Positions 4,385-15,688 are shown, counted from the first letter of the stretch. The stretch: DNA of 32,946 nucleotides from Prevotella sp. (GCA_016284635.1 JAEEPF010000022.1:1-32946); one strand, 5' to 3'. A program made the numbers and translations. Notes: generated by a model not told the origin, from the sequence alone.

Positions 4385-4415
4385 CAAAAAAAGCGGGCCT
4401 TGCGGCTCGCTTTTC
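4385..4415. terminator. Bidirectional intrinsic terminator-like hairpin
   Basis: AAAAAAAGCGGGCC-TTGC-GGCTCGCTTTT: 9-bp stem with one G-T pair, A-tract before and T-tract after. Confidence 0.7.
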
Positions 4416-4571
4416 TGTGTGTGAGAGAATGTTTAATATTTGAAGTACTCTGCAAATTTGTCGTACATGGCGTAGACATCATGTGCGAGTATTTCTACAT
4501 CTACAGTTTTCACATTGCCACCGCGATTCATGATAAATACAATCCAGATGCTGTAGTTGAATGCGTATTCG

Positions 4572-4780
4572 TTGGGCTCTTCCTCTATACCGATGGTCTG
4601 GACGAGGCCGAGAATGCCCAACGCCAGATGTTCGGCAAGGAACGGATAACTGAAGTGCTGCAAACTGCATCGCCGGAGCCACAGACACTCATCAAACAGA
4701 TGACTCAGGCTGTGGTCGACTTCGTAGGCGATACCGAACAGAGCGATGATCTCACCATGTTGGCATTGCAATACCTGTAA
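4572..4780 (+). pseudogene. C-terminal fragment of a SpoIIE/RsbU-type PP2C phosphatase
   Basis: Translation GLFLYTDGLDEAENAQRQMFGKERITEVLQ...DFVGDTEQSDDLTMLALQYL matches the PP2C/SpoIIE C-terminal motif pattern (LYTDGL.EA.N, GD.EQSDDLTML). No N-terminal domain is present upstream. Confidence 0.8.
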
Positions 4781-4903: not shown

Positions 4904-4934
4904 TTTGTCGTTTCAGAAAATTTGTTTATCTTTG
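4904..4934 (+). promoter_or_regulatory. Putative Bacteroidota promoter (TTTG-N19-TATCTTTG)
   Basis: TTTG 4904-4907 and TATCTTTG 4927-4934, 19-nt spacer, upstream of the DUF4105-like gene. Confidence 0.7.
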
Positions 4935-4991: not shown

Positions 4992-6248
4992 ATGAGAGCC
5001 ATTAAAACCAAAAAGACCATAATAAGTCGGGCAGTCATGACATTGCTTATGACGCTGCTGACGGTGTCGGCATGGGCCGGCGTCGGTAAGAGGCATTTGG
5101 TTCCTGTGGCTCCCGACAGCAGTGACTTTGTCAAGGCCAGCGTGATGTATGTCTCGCCGCTCAACAACTTTAAGTCTATTGCCGGCCATTGTGCTTTGCA
5201 CATGGAATGTCCGTCAGAGGGGTTTGATGTTATCTTTACCTTTTCCGAAGAACTTGGTCGGAGAGACTGGGGACAGCTGATCGCACGCAATAAATTCAGG
5301 ACAGTAGGTCTGCTTGCTGACACCGTGATAAATGAATTTAGGGCCGAAGGACGACAGGTAGTAGAATGGCCGCTCAACCTGACCCACCACGAGAAACAGC
5401 GTCTCTGGATGCTGCTCGACCAGAACGTAGCCAAGAGTTCTGCCGGTGAGCATTTCTGCTATATCAACGGGCAATGCGCCTCGATGGTGCTACAGGCCCT
5501 GGAGCGATGCACCATCGGTGAATACGTTGATTTGGGCCCCAGACTGGAGCCGATGTCCCTGACACCACAGGGCAACTATTATCGCTGGGTATTCAGAGAC
5601 TCTCCCTGGTTCCTTTTCTGCATTGTCACTTTTGGCGGCGACGGCTTTGACAGGTCTGCCCCTGTGGATCATGTCATCTGCCCGGAGCTGATGGTTCCCC
5701 TGTTGCAGCAGGCTCGCCTCCGCAGTTCCGACGATGCCGACTCTGTGACAGTCAGGCCTGTGCTCATAGGCTCCCATCAGGAACTGCTGCCCTTGGTGAC
5801 CAAGACCTATACGTCGCCCGTTACTCCTCGGATGGTGTTCGCCGCCTTGTTGGTGCTGATCGTCCTTGTGACTCTCTTGGAGTGGCTTCTGCGCCAGCAT
5901 AGGTTGGCTTTGTGGTTCGATCGTGTGCTCTTTGCGCTTTATGCCTTGTGGGCTGTGGCGGTGGTGTGGTTCGTTGTCGTAGGCTTGACCCTCGGCGATG
6001 CCAATTGGAACTGGTACATCATCCCCTTCAACCCGCTGCCCGTCGTCATCTGGGCTTGGCAAAGGAAACGCCCCCAATATAAGAAGGTGTTTCTGCTCTA
6101 TGCGGTGGTACTCACGCTGTTCTTGCTGGCCACGCCGTTGTCGGCACAGATTGATCTTGACCACCAGCTTATCACAGCCTCGCTGGCCATTCGTTGCTTT
6201 AGCAACTATTATCAATTCAAATATTCAAAATCAAAACCTAAGATATGA
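4992..6248 (+). CDS. DUF4105/Lnb N-terminal-like periplasmic domain membrane protein
   Basis: ATG at 4992 precedes a signal peptide (MRAIKTKKTIISRAVMTLLMTLLTVSAWA), a periplasmic domain with GHCALHME and CYINGQCASMVLQALE (His/Cys candidate sites), then several C-terminal TM segments. ORF track starts earlier at 4905. Confidence 0.7.
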   Translation: MRAIKTKKTIISRAVMTLLMTLLTVSAWAGVGKRHLVPVAPDSSDFVKASVMYVSPLNNFKSIAGHCALHMECPSEGFDVIFTFSEELGRRDWGQLIARNKFRTVGLLADTVINEFRAEGRQVVEWPLNLTHHEKQRLWMLLDQNVAKSSAGEHFCYINGQCASMVLQALERCTIGEYVDLGPRLEPMSLTPQGNYYRWVFRDSPWFLFCIVTFGGDGFDRSAPVDHVICPELMVPLLQQARLRSSDDADSVTVRPVLIGSHQELLPLVTKTYTSPVTPRMVFAALLVLIVLVTLLEWLLRQHRLALWFDRVLFALYALWAVAVVWFVVVGLTLGDANWNWYIIPFNPLPVVIWAWQRKRPQYKKVFLLYAVVLTLFLLATPLSAQIDLDHQLITASLAIRCFSNYYQFKYSKSKPKI

Positions 6249-8893
6249 TGAAAGGTAGATTAATCATGGCATTACTGCTATGGGTGGCAGTTGCCGACAA
6301 TGTTTGGGGGTATGTTGGTAATGGAGTAGGAATTGTTAGCTGTACTCCAGGTGAAGGATATGTCTATTCATCAAAAACAGATATCCCCTATGATGAAGTT
6401 TCCGAATGGAATGACTGTTCAAAAAATCCCTCGTATGCATGGGGAAGTGGTGAAACAGTAGAAGATGGTTCTCCATATTGGATTTATGCCAAACCTGCTC
6501 AAGGTTATCAGTTTTTAGGATGGAAGAAATATATTGAGATAGACAAGGTTTCTGATGAAGCTGAATTTTATAGTACGAATACTAAAGAGAAATTAATATA
6601 TTATGATAATAATTCATGTGGATATAAAGCTGTTTTTGAGTATAAAACCAAGCTCGTTGGCGTACCTCGAGCTTTCAATGTATATGTGGATAATGACAAA
6701 GTTAAACCCAACGGGAACGGCAATTACAATATTTTAGAAGGGAAGACGGTGAAAATCTCATGGAGCGATGATTACCAATGTGGATTCAGTTCTGAAATAC
6801 CCTCTGCCAATAACGCGACATTCACAATGCCCGAAAACGATGTCACTGTAGTTTTGAACAGTTTGACGATTTCCTCAGGGGTGACCCAGATAGAAGAGAA
6901 AGCTTTTTATAATTGTGGGTTGACCGATGTGTACTATGAGGGAACAAAGGCCCAATGGGATGCTGTCGAAAAGGGGAAAGATGCATTCACTTCCACCATC
7001 CATTGGCGCTGCACGGCCACCTTTAACATGAAGGGCCACGGCACAGCCCCCACGGCGCAGACCGTCTATTCTGGTGTAGCCAATGCTCTGACTAGGCCAA
7101 CAGACCCTACCGCAGAGGATTATGAATTCGGCGGATGGTACGTCGATGAGGCATGCAAAAAACCTTTCGATTTTACTGCCGCACTTTCTGACAATGTGAC
7201 AGTTTATGCCTGTTGGTTTCAGGGTAGCCACTACACATTGGAACTGCCCGACATAGTGGAAATCAACCCAAATACGGTGTGGACTCCTACGACGGTGATG
7301 GTCTCAAATCTGAAACTTGGGCAAAATACTAATGGACACACGCCAACAGCCCTTCGATTAGTACTCAATAGGGGAACGCTTGTCAATCAAGCGGACGACA
7401 CTAAGACCATACCATTTTTCACGTACTACAATGAATCCGAGGGCAATCCACCGGTTTCTGTTCTCCTTAATTTGAATTCAAACGGTGCGGCAACATTTTA
7501 TATCAAAGTAAGCAGCGACGACTGGGATGCGGCAGAGCCTGGCACATATAGCGGAACTTTGCCTTGTCAAATTTTTTATTTTTACAAGAATACTTCTTTT
7601 GTGACCGAAGAACTTGAAACTCGCACCATCCCCGTGACGCTGACAATCCCACCGGAACCACACACCATCACCACCGCTGTCTCGCCCGCTGAAGGGGGTA
7701 CGGTGACAGGCGGTGGCACATACGACAAAGGTACTGATGTTACCCTAAAGGCCACAGCCAATGAGGGCTATTCATTTGTGAATTGGACGGAAGACGGCAA
7801 CGAGGTAAGCACCGAGGCCACCTATACTTTCACCGTCAGTGACGACCGTTCTCTGGTGGCGAACTTCGAGCAGGGCTACACCATCAACGTCGCGGTTGAT
7901 CCCAAGGATGGCGGCATGGTGACGGGCGGCAGCAGCGGCTTCTATGCTGATGGTACGCAACTTGTAATTAAGGCCATACCGAACGAGGGTTACCGGTTTG
8001 TGGACTGGAAGATCGACGGCGTCAATGGCAGTTCTGAGCCCACCTATACGTTCATCGTCGACGGCGATTTAAGTACGTTGGTGGCCCACTTTGAACAGGT
8101 CTATCGGCTCTCGGGCACGAACGTGTTGTTCTTCTCAGAGGGTAGCATTAACAACATCACCGAGGCTGCGGAAGGCGAGCGGGTGACGGTGAGCCTGAAC
8201 CCCGTGAACGTTCAAAACGGATATTATCTGACGGGCGAGTTCTCGACGGACGGCGTGGTGATTACCAAGGAGGAAGACAATGAAGACGGTTGGTTCATCA
8301 TGCCCGCGAAGGCAGTGACGGTGAATGCTGTGGCTGCCGAACGTACAGAGTACAAGATTGACCTGACCACGGCCACGACGCAGACTATTACCGAGGGGGC
8401 TTGGCTGGCGCTGATGCAGCAGGAGGGCTACTTCGGCTCTGTCTGTGACGATACGGGATATCTGCAGTACATAGATCTGAATCTCGACGGCACACCCGAT
8501 CTACAGCTGACGGATGACTATAACGAGGCAACAAGAGTGACCACGTACGGCGTGACGAAACTCGATGGCGCCAATCAGCTGACGACGAATTACCGCCTCA
8601 CCATCCCGACCTTCCCTGAACTCAACCCTTCGCCCTACAGCACCATCCTTGTGACGCTCGGCAGCGGCTCTGAGGTGAACAATCTGCCTGAGATCATCAT
8701 GGGCGACGTGAATGGCGACGGACGGGTGACCATCACCGATGCCACGCTCTTGACGGACTTTGTCAATACGGGCGTGGAACCTGCAGGCTTCGTCAAGGCG
8801 GCTGCCGATGTGGACTATAGCCGCAGCATCACCATGGCTGACGTCATGGCCATCCTCGAAATAATCCTCACCAGTTTTCCAACGATAGATTAA
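6245..8893 (+). CDS. Secreted surface protein: BspA-like LRR remnant, InlB B-repeat, bacterial repeat domains and C-terminal type I dockerin
   Basis: Signal peptide; TQIEEKAFYNCGLTDVYYEGTKAQWDAV (LRR_5/BspA-like); RPTDPTAEDYEFGGWYVDEACKKPFDF (InlB B-repeat); two SPAEGGTVTGGGTY..GYSFVNWTEDG repeats; GDVNGDGRVTITDATLLTDFVNTG...DVDYSRSITMADVMAILEIIL (dockerin). Confidence 0.85.
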   Translation: MMKGRLIMALLLWVAVADNVWGYVGNGVGIVSCTPGEGYVYSSKTDIPYDEVSEWNDCSKNPSYAWGSGETVEDGSPYWIYAKPAQGYQFLGWKKYIEIDKVSDEAEFYSTNTKEKLIYYDNNSCGYKAVFEYKTKLVGVPRAFNVYVDNDKVKPNGNGNYNILEGKTVKISWSDDYQCGFSSEIPSANNATFTMPENDVTVVLNSLTISSGVTQIEEKAFYNCGLTDVYYEGTKAQWDAVEKGKDAFTSTIHWRCTATFNMKGHGTAPTAQTVYSGVANALTRPTDPTAEDYEFGGWYVDEACKKPFDFTAALSDNVTVYACWFQGSHYTLELPDIVEINPNTVWTPTTVMVSNLKLGQNTNGHTPTALRLVLNRGTLVNQADDTKTIPFFTYYNESEGNPPVSVLLNLNSNGAATFYIKVSSDDWDAAEPGTYSGTLPCQIFYFYKNTSFVTEELETRTIPVTLTIPPEPHTITTAVSPAEGGTVTGGGTYDKGTDVTLKATANEGYSFVNWTEDGNEVSTEATYTFTVSDDRSLVANFEQGYTINVAVDPKDGGMVTGGSSGFYADGTQLVIKAIPNEGYRFVDWKIDGVNGSSEPTYTFIVDGDLSTLVAHFEQVYRLSGTNVLFFSEGSINNITEAAEGERVTVSLNPVNVQNGYYLTGEFSTDGVVITKEEDNEDGWFIMPAKAVTVNAVAAERTEYKIDLTTATTQTITEGAWLALMQQEGYFGSVCDDTGYLQYIDLNLDGTPDLQLTDDYNEATRVTTYGVTKLDGANQLTTNYRLTIPTFPELNPSPYSTILVTLGSGSEVNNLPEIIMGDVNGDGRVTITDATLLTDFVNTGVEPAGFVKAAADVDYSRSITMADVMAILEIILTSFPTID

Positions 8894-8908
8894 ATCATCC
8901 CACAAGTT

Positions 8909-11900
8909 ATGAAAATGAAAAGAACAATAGGCATCAGAAGCCAAAAGAGTTTTATGAGACGGGCAGTGATGACAGTGCTGCTTGCAATGATAACCATGAT
9001 GGCGTGGGCTGCCAAGCCTGTTACCAACTTGGACGCTTGTCGCGGAGAGGCTTACAGCATCTACGTAAGTGGTTGGGCTTTCGACAAAGACGCACCTGAC
9101 TATAGCCTCAGCGTGAAGGTATATGTCTATACCGACGCAGCGTGCAAGAACCAATATGCATACAAGAAACTGGCTACCGGCTATGTGGACAGGCCTGACG
9201 TGGTAACGGCGCACAGCCTGCCGAGTGGCTCTAAGCCCGGCTTCGAGGGCCGCATCCCCATCACGGATCCCGGCACCTATTACGTGAAGGTGTTTGCCAT
9301 CGACATCGACCAGTGGGGCGATGACGTTGCCAATAGCAGTACTGAGATGAGCCATTCCTTCAACCCCGTGACCGTGACGACCCTCACGACCATCGGCTCG
9401 GCAGCCGATTGGAACACCTTTGTCACTGTCATAAAAAGTGGCGGCGAGGACTTTGCCGGCAAGACGGTGACGTTGACAGCCGACATCCCCACCGCTGCGG
9501 AGATAGCGGCGGGCACGACAGCCGTCACGACGATTACCGGCGAGAACAAAGCCTTCTGCGGCACGTTCGACGGTCAGGGCCATACCATCAACGTTGATCT
9601 TAACGTTTCCGGCAACATAGCGGAAGGTCTCTTCAGCAATGTGAAGGGAGCCACCATCAAGGACCTCACCGTCACGGGCACCATCAACAACACTGGCATG
9701 TACGCTGGCGGACTGGTGGGTACTGCCAAGGGAGCGACCATCCAGAACTGCACCTTTGCCGCCACCATCAATAGCTCTGGTAATGAGATAGGCGCCTTCG
9801 TGGGCGGCTGCAGCCAGATAGATGCCGACACCCCTGGCAACCTGACGCTGCAGGACTGCATCTTCAGTGGCAGCATTCATATCACAGGTTCCTACGGCGA
9901 CAGCAAATCCGCCGGCTTGGTGTCGGTATGGAACAACACATCGCTCACCATCAGCAACTGCCTCGTCAAGGGTTCGTTCTCCAGCGAACGTTCCGGCGCC
10001 CAGTTCTATCCTATCGCCTTCAAGACGGCTGGCGTTACCGTCACGGCCAACGTCAGCGGTGCCTACTACCTGAACACCCTCCCCGTCACCACCTCCGGCT
10101 CCAATTTCATCTCCGGTGCCGAGGGCATGGCGGTGAGCAATACCGTAACGCCGGAGCGTGACCGTCCCTTCGTGGCGGTCGACGGCAATACATACTATGC
10201 CATGTCCTCAAACCACATCATCGAGGACGGTATCAGCTCAACGGCAGATTGGATTAACTTTGTGGCGTTGGTGAACGAGGGTACCGAATCCTTTGAAGGG
10301 CAGACCGTGAAGCTGAAGTCAGACATCTGCATATCGTCGATGGTGGGCACAAGCGACCACCCTTTCTGCGGCACGTTCGACGGAGACGGCAAGACAATGA
10401 CTGTTGATATCAATACAATAGAGACATACGCGGCTCCATTCCACTATATTGACGGAGCAACGATTAAGAACCTCACCGTTGAGGGCCACGTCACAAGCAA
10501 TTCCACGGACTACGTAAACTACGCTGCAGGATTCGTGGGTGTTTGTGGTAGTACAGGGGTGAACACTATCACTAATTGTATTGTCAATACTGATGTGAGC
10601 GTTGATGCCAGTGGGAACAATCCTATTACTTTTGCTGGTGGTATCATATACCTCTTGAAGGGTAGTCTGACGATGGAGCGTTGCGTCTATGGTGGCACCA
10701 TCAGTGGTTTTCAATACGAATCGGGCGGATTTATTGGCGAATTAGATGCGAACACAATAACACTTATTCTCACCAACTGCATATTCAGGGGTGTATTCTC
10801 ACCTGGAAAAAACGGAAAATATAACCCCATAGTCATGTCGGGATATTGTAAAAACTTGAATGCCTCAATAAGCGACACCTACTATCTTAACACCGCTGCC
10901 CCCACATTTGTTTATGATACTTTATCCGAACTCACGGGAACACCAGTGAGTGCGACCTTTGTAGAAGGTAAGTGGGAAATCCCCGTGACATTAATCGATG
11001 GCAACATCTATTATCTGCACGGAAAAAGTCTGCCTTATTCCTACGGCTTCGAGAATAACGATCTGGATGCAGAGGGCTGGAGCACTTCATCTTTCTATAT
11101 TCGAATAACTGCTGGTGGTCATAACCATACCCAGGGTCTTTGCTTTAAAGAAAATAATGAACTACAGTACTTGATTTCCCCCGAACTTGACGGGAAAGCT
11201 GCAATGAAAGTATCGTTCTATTATTATTCCACGGCTACCACTGAGGAGGAAATCATCATTCCTGCCCGAGTGGGATATTCCATGACCACCAAGAGCATCG
11301 ATGCTTTCACTTGGGTTGATGCAAATCTTCCTCCTGCAAATCTCGGTTGGTTCTTATATGAAAACGAGTTTCCCGCAGGCACAAAATATGTTGCTTTGGA
11401 AGTTGATATTCCAGAAAGTTCATACTATAACAGGGCTCTTGATGTTGACGACTTCCTTTTTGAGGTGTCTGGTAACCTGCCACCGGCAAATCTCACAGTG
11501 AGCAATATAACAGGCCAGTGTGCTACGGTATCATGGGATGCTCCTCAGACAAATAATACTATCACGGGCTATGTATACAAATACAAGAAAGACAGCGATG
11601 AAAACTGGTCGGAAGAATTCACGACAAACTCTACTACTGTTACGCTCACTGGGCTGATAGACGACACATCATATGAATTCCGCGTGTCGGCACTCTATGG
11701 CAGCAATAACGACTTTTATTGCACCACTACGAAATTCACAACACCAATTGTTTACCAATCCCCCGTCAACTTGGCTATTAGCAGTATCACTTACCTAAGT
11801 GCTACGCTTACATGGGAGGCTCCAGAAACTGGGACGGGCACAACCCTTCTTGGTTATGGTTATCAGTATAGAAAGCAGGGCGACGAAGATTGGTCAGAGG

Positions 11901-14900
11901 AAATTTCAGTGAATAATACTACCACTACTATCGAAGGGCTGTCAGACAATACACGATATGAGTTCAGATTGAGAGCATTATATGACGGCAGTCATGTGAG
12001 TAGGTTTACAAACATCAGTTTTATTATAGGCGATGCCATTCGTGTAACAGCTGGAACTAAAACAATGGATGCCGTTCACAGAGTGATGGACGATGTTACC
12101 ATCAATGACCGTATCACCATCAATGGCGACGTAACGCTCATTCTTGATGAGGGGAAAACCCTTAATGCCACCAGTGGCATCAAGTTGTCGGCTGGGAACA
12201 AACTGACAATTAAGGGAAAAGGCACACTTAATGCAGACGCTTCCAGTTATCCTGGGGCTGGAATTGGCTCAGATAATGTTGGCATACTGGTAATCGAGGA
12301 CGGTATAATCAATGTCCGAGGTGGTTATCGCGCTGCTGGTATTGGCGGTTCAAACTTCTGTAGTAATGGTGGATCAATTACCATTAATGGCGGAACTATT
12401 AATGCAACTGGCGGTTATGAAGGTGCTGGCATTGGTGGTGGATCTGCAAATGGAGAAGAAAACTACGGCATTTGTGGTACTATCACCATCAATGGTGGAA
12501 AGATAACAGCCATAGGAGGCGAAGGGGCTCCAGGAATCGGATCGATGGATGGTGCTCCTATCGGTGGTTCTATCACTCTTGGTTGGACTAATGAAGATGA
12601 TTTTATTTATTCCAGTGGTTACGCCAATGTAACTTCTATTAAATTTGCGAAAGACAAATATTTCTTTTGGTCAGAAAATGGCGTAACTCAAGCTGCTACG
12701 ATAGATAATATCGGTGGCAAGAAGATTGTTCCTCTCAGTGAAGAACTGTCACATAATTTCGACTATATTGCCGTCAGTGGCATAGAACCCTATTATCTTT
12801 ATTCGGGGGATGAAATCAACATAGACTTTATTGTGAAAGACGCAGGAGGAAACGAGTTGGAAAAGGGAACCCATTTCACGGAGTCTTACAGCTCTTTTCC
12901 TGTTAAGGAAAGTGGCAACTATACCCTTACCTTGACCGCCATAGATGGTAGTGGCTATCTGGGCTCCAAAGAATTCAGTTTTACTGTTGGCGATGGCATT
13001 CCCGTAACTGAAGAAACAACAAAGTTGACTTTTTGCCAATACAAGGTTTCGGATGATGTTACTATCGATGATCACATTACCATTAATGGCAACGTGAAGC
13101 TGATTCTTGATGAGGGCAAGACGCTTACGGTCACTAAAGGTATTGAGGTGTCGGGGGGTAATAAGTTGACCATAGAAGGGAAAGGTAAACTCATTGCAAC
13201 GGGATATGGCAATTATTCTGGTATCGGTTCACCAATGTCCGGTATGTTCGGTACTTTGGTTATAAATGACGGTACAATTATAGCTACAGGAGCATTATCT
13301 GCGGCGGGTATCGGTGGTTCTGTCTGCAATACTGGTGGAGGGACAATCTACATCAATGGTGGTCATGTAACTGCCACAGGCGGAAATGGGGGTGCCGGCA
13401 TCGGAGGCGGTTTTGGCGGTGTCTGTGGAACTATCTTCATCAATGGCGGTAAGGTTATTGCCATAGGTGGTAATAATGCGCCAGGTGTTGGCCCTGGAGG
13501 TGGAAGCTCGGGAAAGGGTACAGGTTCAATGACTCTTGGCTGGACCAATACAGACGATTATATCTATGCCAGCAGTTATGACCTGGGAGGAGGCTTCTAT
13601 ATTGCAGAAAACCAGATTCTCTATGATAATTCCGGTAACATTTATAGTGGAAAACTGTCTGAAGAGGAGTTATCCGCCATTCAAGGCAAAGAGCTGAGAG
13701 CCAGAACCTTGATAGTGAGTCTGCCTTATATTCAAGACTTTTCTGACGGCATGGGCGGTTGGATTGCTGTGGATGGTGTTGGCAATACAGGTCTTAATAT
13801 AGGAGCAGACACAAATTTCATGTTTGGCATAAGTGAGTCTTATCAATACCTCATCTCCCCACAACTGGACTTAACCACTGATGTAAAACTATCGTTCTAC
13901 GTCAAGAATTTTGTTGCATATACTATGTCGTTTGATGCTAAATTCCAAGTGGGGGTTTCAACAAAGACCAATAGTATTTCCGATTTTATATGGCAGGAAG
14001 AGTGGATGGCCAGTGGTGGTTCGTCTCGGCTTGTTCAATATTACCTCCCTGCTGAGGTTAAATATGTGGCAATTAAGTACCTTCCTGATCCTGGTAATTA
14101 TTTGTATATCGACAACATCAGCTTTGTGGCGGTTGCGGATGTCAGTCTCGCCGAAGATGCCGACAATGGTGACATCATCAGCGGTGTAGACGGTTACCTT
14201 GCCGACGTGACCCTGCAGGACCGTACACTCTGGACGGACAACGAGTGGAACACACTGTGCCTGCCGTTCTCGATGACCGCCTCACAGATCGCTGGTTCAC
14301 CTCTGGCTGGAGCCGTCATCAAGGAGGTGAACGCTGAGACGTCGAACATGACGGACGGGACGCTGACGCTGAACTTCAAGAGAACCACAAGCATATCGGC
14401 AGGGAAACCCTATATCGTGAAGTGGGCGAATGCTGACCTTGTCATCAGCTCGGAAGCGGATTGGGAGGCGTTTGCCACAAGCGTGGCGGAAGGCGTTAGC
14501 TACTACGCCAAGACCGTGATGCTCGACACCGACCTCACCGTCACGGAAATGGTGAAAGGCTTCTTTACGGGCACCTTCGACGGCAACGGGCATACCATCA
14601 CCCTCGATATAGATTATAAGGAAAGCACGTCGAACCCAGGTCAGGCACTCTTCTATCAACTTAGGAACGCTACCGTCAAGAACCTCCAGACCGAGGGATG
14701 GGTCACCACATCCGGGCATCGCCCTGCCAACATTGCCGTGTACGCCGATGGCACCTCCACCATCAGCAACTGCACCTGTGGGGCATCGATTGAGTCAACC
14801 CTCAAAAACTCATGGGTGGACGGCGGCGCCGTGGTGGCCTGCATCAAGTCAGGAGCCACGCTCAACATCACCGACTGCTATGCCAGAGCGTCCGTTTACT

Positions 14901-15688
14901 ACGAAAATTCCGCCTATTCAGGCGGTGGCGTGGTGGGGTGGACGGAGGACGCCACGGCGACGGCCAACCTGGAGTGCTGCGTGTACGCTCCGACCTGGAT
15001 TGAGATAGAAAAGACAGATAATGATCCCCACTACTTCGTGTCGGGTCCGGGGCAGAAGACACTTTCCAAATGCTTCTACAATGAAACGGCCGAGGAGTCG
15101 GTGCTCACGGCCGAAGGAACGAATTGGGGGGTGTATTATAACACGGATGACCTATGGAGTTATCTGGGCTGGAAGAGAGGCATCAAGCTGCCCAAAGAGG
15201 TTGTAGTCGAGTTCGCCTCCATAGAGGATCCTGTGTTCAAAGACGTGATTATTGAATCAGGGAATACGTCCGTCGTGAACTTCGACGGCGGTCAGTTCAT
15301 CGGCTCATACAGTCCCTTCGCTGATATCAGCGGGCTGCTGCTGGACGACCATAATCCGGATAACGGCGCCTGCCGTGCCGCCCTCAGTCTCAGCAGGGCC
15401 TTCGAGGGCTGGTACACCGACGATGCGCTGACTACGCCCGTCACCACCATCCCCTTTACCTCCAATGGCACCGTGAAGCTCTATGCCAAGTGGAGTATAT
15501 TAGCGGGCGACGTGAACGGCGACGGACTGGTGACGATTACCGACGCGGCGGTGCTGATGGACTATCTCAAGACGGGCCTGGAACCTGCGGGTTTCGTTAA
15601 GGCGGCAGCCGACGTGGACGGCAAGCCTGGCATCACCATGAGCGATGCCGTGGCTATCTTGGAAATGATATTGAATGGCTTACCCTAA
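8909..15688 (+). CDS. Giant mosaic surface protein (2259 aa): GLUG-like beta-helix, cleaved-adhesin-like and FnIII modules, AGIGGG beta-helix repeats, C-terminal dockerin
   Basis: Signal peptide ..RRAVMTVLLAMITMMAWA; three FxGTFDGxGHTI modules; two choice-of-anchor-J-like modules (YSYGFENND..GWS; LPYIQDFSDGMGGW); two FnIII domains; INGGTINATGG.GAGIGGG repeats; FEGWYTDDALT; GDVNGDGLVTITDAAVLMDYL..AILEMIL dockerin. Confidence 0.85.
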   Translation: MKMKRTIGIRSQKSFMRRAVMTVLLAMITMMAWAAKPVTNLDACRGEAYSIYVSGWAFDKDAPDYSLSVKVYVYTDAACKNQYAYKKLATGYVDRPDVVTAHSLPSGSKPGFEGRIPITDPGTYYVKVFAIDIDQWGDDVANSSTEMSHSFNPVTVTTLTTIGSAADWNTFVTVIKSGGEDFAGKTVTLTADIPTAAEIAAGTTAVTTITGENKAFCGTFDGQGHTINVDLNVSGNIAEGLFSNVKGATIKDLTVTGTINNTGMYAGGLVGTAKGATIQNCTFAATINSSGNEIGAFVGGCSQIDADTPGNLTLQDCIFSGSIHITGSYGDSKSAGLVSVWNNTSLTISNCLVKGSFSSERSGAQFYPIAFKTAGVTVTANVSGAYYLNTLPVTTSGSNFISGAEGMAVSNTVTPERDRPFVAVDGNTYYAMSSNHIIEDGISSTADWINFVALVNEGTESFEGQTVKLKSDICISSMVGTSDHPFCGTFDGDGKTMTVDINTIETYAAPFHYIDGATIKNLTVEGHVTSNSTDYVNYAAGFVGVCGSTGVNTITNCIVNTDVSVDASGNNPITFAGGIIYLLKGSLTMERCVYGGTISGFQYESGGFIGELDANTITLILTNCIFRGVFSPGKNGKYNPIVMSGYCKNLNASISDTYYLNTAAPTFVYDTLSELTGTPVSATFVEGKWEIPVTLIDGNIYYLHGKSLPYSYGFENNDLDAEGWSTSSFYIRITAGGHNHTQGLCFKENNELQYLISPELDGKAAMKVSFYYYSTATTEEEIIIPARVGYSMTTKSIDAFTWVDANLPPANLGWFLYENEFPAGTKYVALEVDIPESSYYNRALDVDDFLFEVSGNLPPANLTVSNITGQCATVSWDAPQTNNTITGYVYKYKKDSDENWSEEFTTNSTTVTLTGLIDDTSYEFRVSALYGSNNDFYCTTTKFTTPIVYQSPVNLAISSITYLSATLTWEAPETGTGTTLLGYGYQYRKQGDEDWSEEISVNNTTTTIEGLSDNTRYEFRLRALYDGSHVSRFTNISFIIGDAIRVTAGTKTMDAVHRVMDDVTINDRITINGDVTLILDEGKTLNATSGIKLSAGNKLTIKGKGTLNADASSYPGAGIGSDNVGILVIEDGIINVRGGYRAAGIGGSNFCSNGGSITINGGTINATGGYEGAGIGGGSANGEENYGICGTITINGGKITAIGGEGAPGIGSMDGAPIGGSITLGWTNEDDFIYSSGYANVTSIKFAKDKYFFWSENGVTQAATIDNIGGKKIVPLSEELSHNFDYIAVSGIEPYYLYSGDEINIDFIVKDAGGNELEKGTHFTESYSSFPVKESGNYTLTLTAIDGSGYLGSKEFSFTVGDGIPVTEETTKLTFCQYKVSDDVTIDDHITINGNVKLILDEGKTLTVTKGIEVSGGNKLTIEGKGKLIATGYGNYSGIGSPMSGMFGTLVINDGTIIATGALSAAGIGGSVCNTGGGTIYINGGHVTATGGNGGAGIGGGFGGVCGTIFINGGKVIAIGGNNAPGVGPGGGSSGKGTGSMTLGWTNTDDYIYASSYDLGGGFYIAENQILYDNSGNIYSGKLSEEELSAIQGKELRARTLIVSLPYIQDFSDGMGGWIAVDGVGNTGLNIGADTNFMFGISESYQYLISPQLDLTTDVKLSFYVKNFVAYTMSFDAKFQVGVSTKTNSISDFIWQEEWMASGGSSRLVQYYLPAEVKYVAIKYLPDPGNYLYIDNISFVAVADVSLAEDADNGDIISGVDGYLADVTLQDRTLWTDNEWNTLCLPFSMTASQIAGSPLAGAVIKEVNAETSNMTDGTLTLNFKRTTSISAGKPYIVKWANADLVISSEADWEAFATSVAEGVSYYAKTVMLDTDLTVTEMVKGFFTGTFDGNGHTITLDIDYKESTSNPGQALFYQLRNATVKNLQTEGWVTTSGHRPANIAVYADGTSTISNCTCGASIESTLKNSWVDGGAVVACIKSGATLNITDCYARASVYYENSAYSGGGVVGWTEDATATANLECCVYAPTWIEIEKTDNDPHYFVSGPGQKTLSKCFYNETAEESVLTAEGTNWGVYYNTDDLWSYLGWKRGIKLPKEVVVEFASIEDPVFKDVIIESGNTSVVNFDGGQFIGSYSPFADISGLLLDDHNPDNGACRAALSLSRAFEGWYTDDALTTPVTTIPFTSNGTVKLYAKWSILAGDVNGDGLVTITDAAVLMDYLKTGLEPAGFVKAAADVDGKPGITMSDAVAILEMILNGLP
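12029..12620 (+). repeat. Intragenic repeat module A (Gly-rich beta-helix)
   Basis: GDAIRVT...DDVTINDRITINGDVTLILDEGKTLN...AGIGGG...ITLGWTNEDDFIYSSGY; matched by module B. Confidence 0.8.
12989..13580 (+). repeat. Intragenic repeat module B (Gly-rich beta-helix)
   Basis: GDGIPVT...DDVTIDDHITINGNVKLILDEGKTLT...AGIGGG...MTLGWTNTDDYIYASSY; paralogous to module A. Confidence 0.8.

Follow-up and report, generated by a model that had tools for sequence, protein, structure and literature searches.

A predicted Lnb paralogue encoded with an exported PTGxGxVY-domain protein in Prevotella: a candidate acyltransferase and its putative client

Why should a DUF4105-like membrane protein be encoded directly ahead of two giant surface proteins that end in dockerin modules? 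The three genes lie on one strand of a stretch of 32,946 nucleotides from Prevotella sp. (GCA_016284635.1, JAEEPF010000022.1), hereafter the window, and the original prediction saw in them a device for processing, anchoring or displaying dockerin-tagged adhesins. We propose instead that the locus represents a widespread two-gene module, which combines a cognate exported protein bearing a PTGxGxVY domain with a divergent paralogue of Lnb, the enzyme that N-acylates lipoproteins. In this module the paralogue would acylate its partner, plausibly at the alpha-amine. Our confidence in this reading as a whole is moderate, and its parts are of unequal strength: the family membership of the enzyme, its conserved catalytic residues, the conserved pairing and the fusions of the two proteins are direct observations, and the reaction and its acceptor site are progressively more conjectural.

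The locus and its membrane protein

The layout of the locus is as originally described (Table 1). ORF calls and pattern searches recovered the three genes, the ATGA in which the stop codon of the membrane protein gene overlaps the start codon of the 882-aa gene (6245-6248), the 15 bp separating the latter from the 2259-aa gene, and a promoter upstream. The promoter pattern occurs three times in the whole window, against 0.16 expected from shuffling, and the copy at 4904 is the only one near the three-gene set. The ORF of the membrane protein extends upstream to 4905. Farther upstream, at 4400-4780, we noticed by eye a 126-aa ORF resembling the C-terminal remnant of a SpoIIE/PP2C-type phosphatase. 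A scan of genome contigs with the single sequence returned one relative only, in a Prevotella MAG from goat abomasum.

Table 1. Coordinates of the features of the locus, counted from the first nucleotide of the window
Feature	Position	Strand	Basis or content
Bacteroidota-type promoter, TTTG-N19-TATCTTTG	4904..4934	+	exact pattern match
Lnb paralogue (predicted), 418 aa from ATG 4992	4992..6248	+	signal/TM segment, periplasmic Lnb_N, 5-TM C-terminal domain
Lnb_N catalytic domain, aa 48-176	5133..5519	+	Pfam PF13387
Predicted catalytic His66 (GH motif)	5187..5189	+	invariant in 39 homologues; present in canonical Lnb
Predicted catalytic Cys162	5475..5477	+	invariant in 39 homologues; aligns with DNC[ST] of canonical Lnb
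Lnb 5-TM domain, aa 275-409	5814..6218	+	Pfam PF25221
Partner surface protein, 882 aa	6245..8893	+	signal peptide, N-terminal PTGxGxVY domain, InlB-type repeats, C-terminal dockerin
PTGxGxVY domain, conserved beside Lnb paralogues	6308..6739	+	profile A2, E 1.8e-24 in own genome; window row included in profile
C-terminal dockerin of the 882-aa protein	8702..8854	+	PF00404, 38.9 bits
Second giant surface protein, 2259 aa	8909..15688	+	fn3, choice-of-anchor J, beta-helix repeats, dockerin
C-terminal dockerin of the 2259-aa protein	15503..15658	+	PF00404, 37.4 bits

The membrane protein belongs to the DUF4105/Lnb_N superfamily. It matches the Pfam models Lnb_N (PF13387, formerly DUF4105) with 29.5 bits, the cut-off being 22.2, and 5TMH_Lnb (PF25221) with 46.5 bits, the cut-off being 25.2. 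The motifs GHCALHME and NGQCASMV, which had been put forward as candidate His and Cys sites, are the active-site motifs of Lnb, and the alignment of homologues leaves neither residue varied; likewise, the several C-terminal TM helices noted at the outset correspond to the five-TM domain. One article (PMC12994826) classes DUF4105 among the permuted NlpC/P60 acyltransferases and, citing Armbruster et al. 2024, equates it with Lnb, which N-acylates lipoproteins in Bacteroides. This identity, which the original prediction did not make, favors acyl transfer over a generic processing or anchoring device. The protein of the window has the same two domains as Bacteroides Lnb, in the same order and with the same invariant His and Cys, and going by its family it would share the topology of Lnb, with the active domain on the periplasmic side of the inner membrane. 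It differs from Lnb in its sequence (about 22-30% identity), in being a second copy, in its separate phylogenetic position and in having a non-lipoprotein as partner: Lnb acts on diacylglyceryl-Cys lipoproteins, and the proteins encoded next to the paralogues have no lipobox. A canonical-looking Lnb is indeed also present in the same genome (contig C156).

The NCBIfam model for Lnb matches the membrane protein weakly, with 70 bits against an equivalog cut-off of 550. This threshold is strict for the genus, because the canonical copy of the same genome itself scores only 372; the paralogues, with 70-163 bits, lie so far below it that their specificity may have changed entirely. The AF2 model of the protein is confident, with a pLDDT of 86.9; a Foldseek search of the PDB with it gave no match at E<=0.001, with CLN5 (6r99) appearing only at E 1.2, and a sequence search of the PDB found no match.

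We surveyed 300 genomes of the genus, in which the matches split into two groups, one of canonical Lnb, with E values of about 1e-6 to 1e-17, and one of paralogues closer to the query. In the tree, 21 canonical rows and 50 paralogues are set apart at 100% SH-aLRT, and they stay apart when the tree is enlarged by held-out sequences (21 versus 81). These comparisons place the membrane protein as a remote Lnb paralogue. Canonical Lnb function was rejected for it, since the gene falls in the separate clade. Within the paralogues we distinguish the window's own subclade, a ligase-adjoining one, a GH38-adjoining one and the fused forms; gene-family searches on the neighbours covered representatives of these subclades. 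GH38-like genes adjoin paralogues at L087, L094-L096 and other loci. In one subclade a gene of ~580 aa lies directly 3' of the paralogue (L070, L083, L086, L089, L091, L093 and L098), and the one examined, that of L091, encodes an AMP-binding, fatty-acid-CoA-ligase-like protein; this company may be counted toward acyl transfer. At one locus, L116:6240-10502, a canonical-type Lnb and a long exported protein share a single reading frame of 1420 aa. The exported part presumably resembles a CotH-type protein.

The pairing of enzyme and exported partner

In the window's clade, the paralogue gene is at most loci followed immediately, on its own strand, by one for an exported protein of some 600-650 aa. 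Just past the signal peptide, these neighbors carry a domain of ~145 residues with a PTGxGxVY motif and the GYxFxxW...AxF signature of InlB B-repeats, which in the 882-aa protein of the window spans aa 20-165. The signature is shared with InlB B-repeat surface proteins (Flg_new_2, PF18998), but the partner domain adds an N-terminal PTGxGxVY strand, long insertions and a fixed place after the signal peptide. A profile seeded mostly on the window's clade also matched the domain beside paralogue subclades that had not been seeded. The alignment of the domain contains no conserved Cys, Lys or Ser as acceptor residue, and its AF2 model, with a pLDDT of 58, was too poor for use.

We observed an association between this domain and the paralogues. 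Across the 300 genomes of the genus, the domain lies <=3 kb from 43 of the 55 listed Lnb paralogues, and 44 of the 46 domain matches near paralogues are on the same strand; the 12 paralogues without a nearby domain include contig ends, one truncated gene and a few ligase-type loci. The same domain was found beside canonical Lnb at none of 20 loci. As a held-out set, the family and order were searched by the partner domain alone, which gave 34 loci, of which 33 come from 10 other genera and represent 3 families. A same-strand Lnb paralogue is present in 32 of these 34 loci, which include a few near-identical pairs, usually directly upstream and mostly with 90-150 bp between the matches; L190 and L194 have no Lnb paralogue. 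Every held-out enzyme that could be placed in the tree falls in the paralogue clade. Over all loci read, the enzyme is directly upstream of its partner in 58 pairs (fused forms being scored as upstream), farther upstream in 3 and downstream in 15.

At L076, L077, L078, L080 and L170 the two proteins are joined in one uninterrupted reading frame containing Lnb_N, a single TM segment, an internal segment resembling a signal peptide, the partner domain and a tail of the CTD-like kind, and at the sister locus L081 the parts of this fused form are encoded as two genes. Such single-frame fusions are strong evidence of joint function. The predicted linkage of the membrane protein to an adjacent exported surface protein is kept well beyond the strain, recurring among Prevotella of gut and rumen and related bacteria, so that the refutation set for the original prediction fails. 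Our search for literature on Lnb paralogues or PF13387 found none; the two-gene module, with its defined client, is real and conserved and, as far as the literature searched shows, undescribed.

About 30% of the partner-domain proteins have no Lnb paralogue nearby. The enzyme is therefore not required, and modification not essential, for every member of the family. Some of these solo proteins (L137, L139-L142) are encoded directly upstream of SusC/SusD-like genes.

The second giant protein of the window is homologous to proteins encoded downstream of Lnb paralogues at L101 (E 3e-64), L068 (E 7e-41) and L069 (E 3e-19; all phmmer), and we therefore regard it as an optional third member. In the nearest relative, L101, the enzyme ends short of the catalytic Cys and the partner domain has gone, while the homologue of the 2259-aa protein is retained; read from the sequence, this is a co-loss of enzyme and partner.

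Proposed acyl transfer to the partner and its alternatives

We infer that the partner is the substrate of the paralogue and that the reaction is acyl transfer. The partner would be exported by Sec and cleaved by signal peptidase I, and the inner-membrane paralogue would then transfer a phospholipid acyl group to it by means of the His/Cys active site. This would happen in the periplasm, ahead of the partner's transit to the surface, where its C-terminal tail, CTD-like or dockerin, would subsequently direct it. More speculatively, the acceptor could be the free alpha-amine of the partner's new N-terminus.

The N-termini themselves bear on this last point. Under the Q-rule, Bacteroidetes usually expose a Gln after cleavage by signal peptidase I and cyclise it, which blocks the alpha-amine (PMC5837995). 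With one crude cleavage-site predictor applied to all proteins, a Gln at +1 was found in none of 73 Lnb-adjacent partners, versus 7 of 31 solo partners (Fisher p 1e-4) and 69 of 234 other exported proteins from the same loci (Fisher p 9e-10). In the held-out set the sole partner with +1 Gln is that of L194, one of the two loci without Lnb. The contrast is weakened by relatedness, as solo partners close to the window's type likewise have no +1 Gln, and a phylogenetically paired comparison was underpowered and not significant (1-3 informative of 8 pairs, all in the expected direction). With no +1 Gln, the alpha-amine of the Lnb-adjacent partners would stay free, and the pattern agrees with a free N-terminus as acceptor, without proving it.

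In its furthest form, the proposal would amount to a new lipidation route in Bacteroidota: Lnb paralogues would N-acylate the alpha-amine of dedicated signal-peptidase-I clients that have no lipobox Cys and break the Q-rule, yielding lipid-anchored surface proteins without lipoprotein biogenesis. We regard this extension as tentative and rather doubtful. Inspection agrees with the earlier view that neither large protein of the window has a lipobox, and the pair would allow a simple test of whether proteins without one can be acylated. A large sister clade of Lnb with a dedicated client would mean that, in abundant bacteria of gut and rumen, the family has branched out into modifying particular surface proteins as its clients.

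The same active site could also belong to a cysteine hydrolase, a permuted NlpC/P60 phospholipase or peptidase with the partner as its regulator, chaperone or processed product, which we consider unlikely. The superfamily includes phospholipases and peptidases besides acyltransferases (PMC12994826, PMC10318531), and enzyme and partner share one chain in the fused forms, but N-acyl transfer is the activity of the nearest characterised family, which shares the 5-TM domain, and the Lnb_N active site is kept in the fusions. Permuted NlpC/P60 enzymes such as LRAT/HRASLS, YiiX, TseH and Tox-Act1 have in common with the paralogue a predicted His/Cys chemistry on acyl groups. We know of none among them with the 5-TM domain or such a partner.

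Quite unlikely, too, is that the paralogue N-acylates lipoproteins in general, as a second such enzyme whose neighborhood merely hitchhiked. Its domains and catalytic residues are those of Lnb, as such a function would have it; however, the pairing persists across deep divergence even though gene order varies (upstream, downstream, fused), and canonical Lnb is paired in this way at none of 20 loci.

C-terminal tails and the dockerin question

Both large proteins of the window do terminate in dockerins, as had been claimed: type I Dockerin_1 is over the Pfam cut-off in each, and the claim that they have no recognisable T9SS C-terminal domain also stands, with no Por_Secre_tail or CTD found by Pfam and NCBIfam. 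SprA_N, a T9SS marker, is present in 14 of 14 genomes, including that of the window. The dockerins are nonetheless far from being the rule among relatives. Of 105 partner-domain proteins, 82 have a CTD-like tail and 17 a dockerin, and 6 have another tail or are truncated, the CTD-like class being defined by our own loose pattern, which Pfam and NCBIfam do not match (no hit at E<0.1 for these tails in the relatives). Dockerin tails occur in 8 of 74 partners beside an Lnb paralogue versus 9 of 31 without one, and we rejected the dockerin as the conserved link on these counts. The expected co-occurrence of enzyme and dockerin thus fails; dockerins are in the minority, and what is conserved is the N-terminal PTGxGxVY domain. 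Moreover, two almost identical partner domains lie in tandem at L056, where one of the proteins ends in a CTD-like tail and the other in half a dockerin. Together with the tail counts, this identifies the dockerin as an exchangeable C-terminal tail. Type I dockerin modules, at the C-termini in this locus, are shared with cellulosomal dockerin-cohesin systems, but here they are optional and replaceable by a CTD-like tail, and the locus has no scaffoldin. Since they take the place of CTD-like tails in proteins that are otherwise homologous, the role of non-cellulosomal dockerins in Prevotella can be put to the test.

On these counts, the membrane protein is an improbable anchor or processing factor for dockerin-tagged adhesins that dock on a cohesin. 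Besides the two proteins of the window, dockerin-tailed partners are found at seven other loci (L053, L064, L066, L084, L172, L178 and L199), and the genome does encode a candidate cohesin protein, as had been sought: an exported-looking chain on another contig (C2:10085-11308; G000, L021) in which two cohesin-like and two dockerin modules alternate. Nothing ties this protein to the locus, however. Of 14 dockerin matches over the cut-off in the genome, two are at this locus, and most of its dockerin proteins are not encoded near an Lnb paralogue; beside Lnb, dockerins are no commoner than elsewhere, and 63 of the 74 adjacent partners have CTD-like tails. The display device originally envisaged therefore survives in the linkage of enzyme and surface protein, which is conserved, but not in the dockerin, which is not, and the enzyme family suggests acyl transfer. 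An envelope conflict or toxin-immunity system, with the enzyme as lipid-acting effector or target and the InlB-repeat protein as delivery part, is very improbable: the toxin domain Tox-Act1 is a sister clade of DUF4105 (PMC12994826), but the enzyme carries a TM domain and a Sec signal of its own, and the neighbors seen are SusC/D-type, GH38 and fatty-acid-ligase genes, with no secretion-system or immunity genes among them.

Finally, many partner genes, and also other genes for CTD-like surface proteins, are followed by small acidic ORFs of some 50-80 aa whose start resembles MKKxYIKPExxxV. We found them behind the partner gene at L054, L056-L060 (unequally checked), L062-L064, L066, L068, L084 and L102, and beside other surface-protein genes at L053 and L067. 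None was found near the three genes of the window, and an NCBIfam search with them gave no match. They possibly constitute a large unrecognised peptide family.
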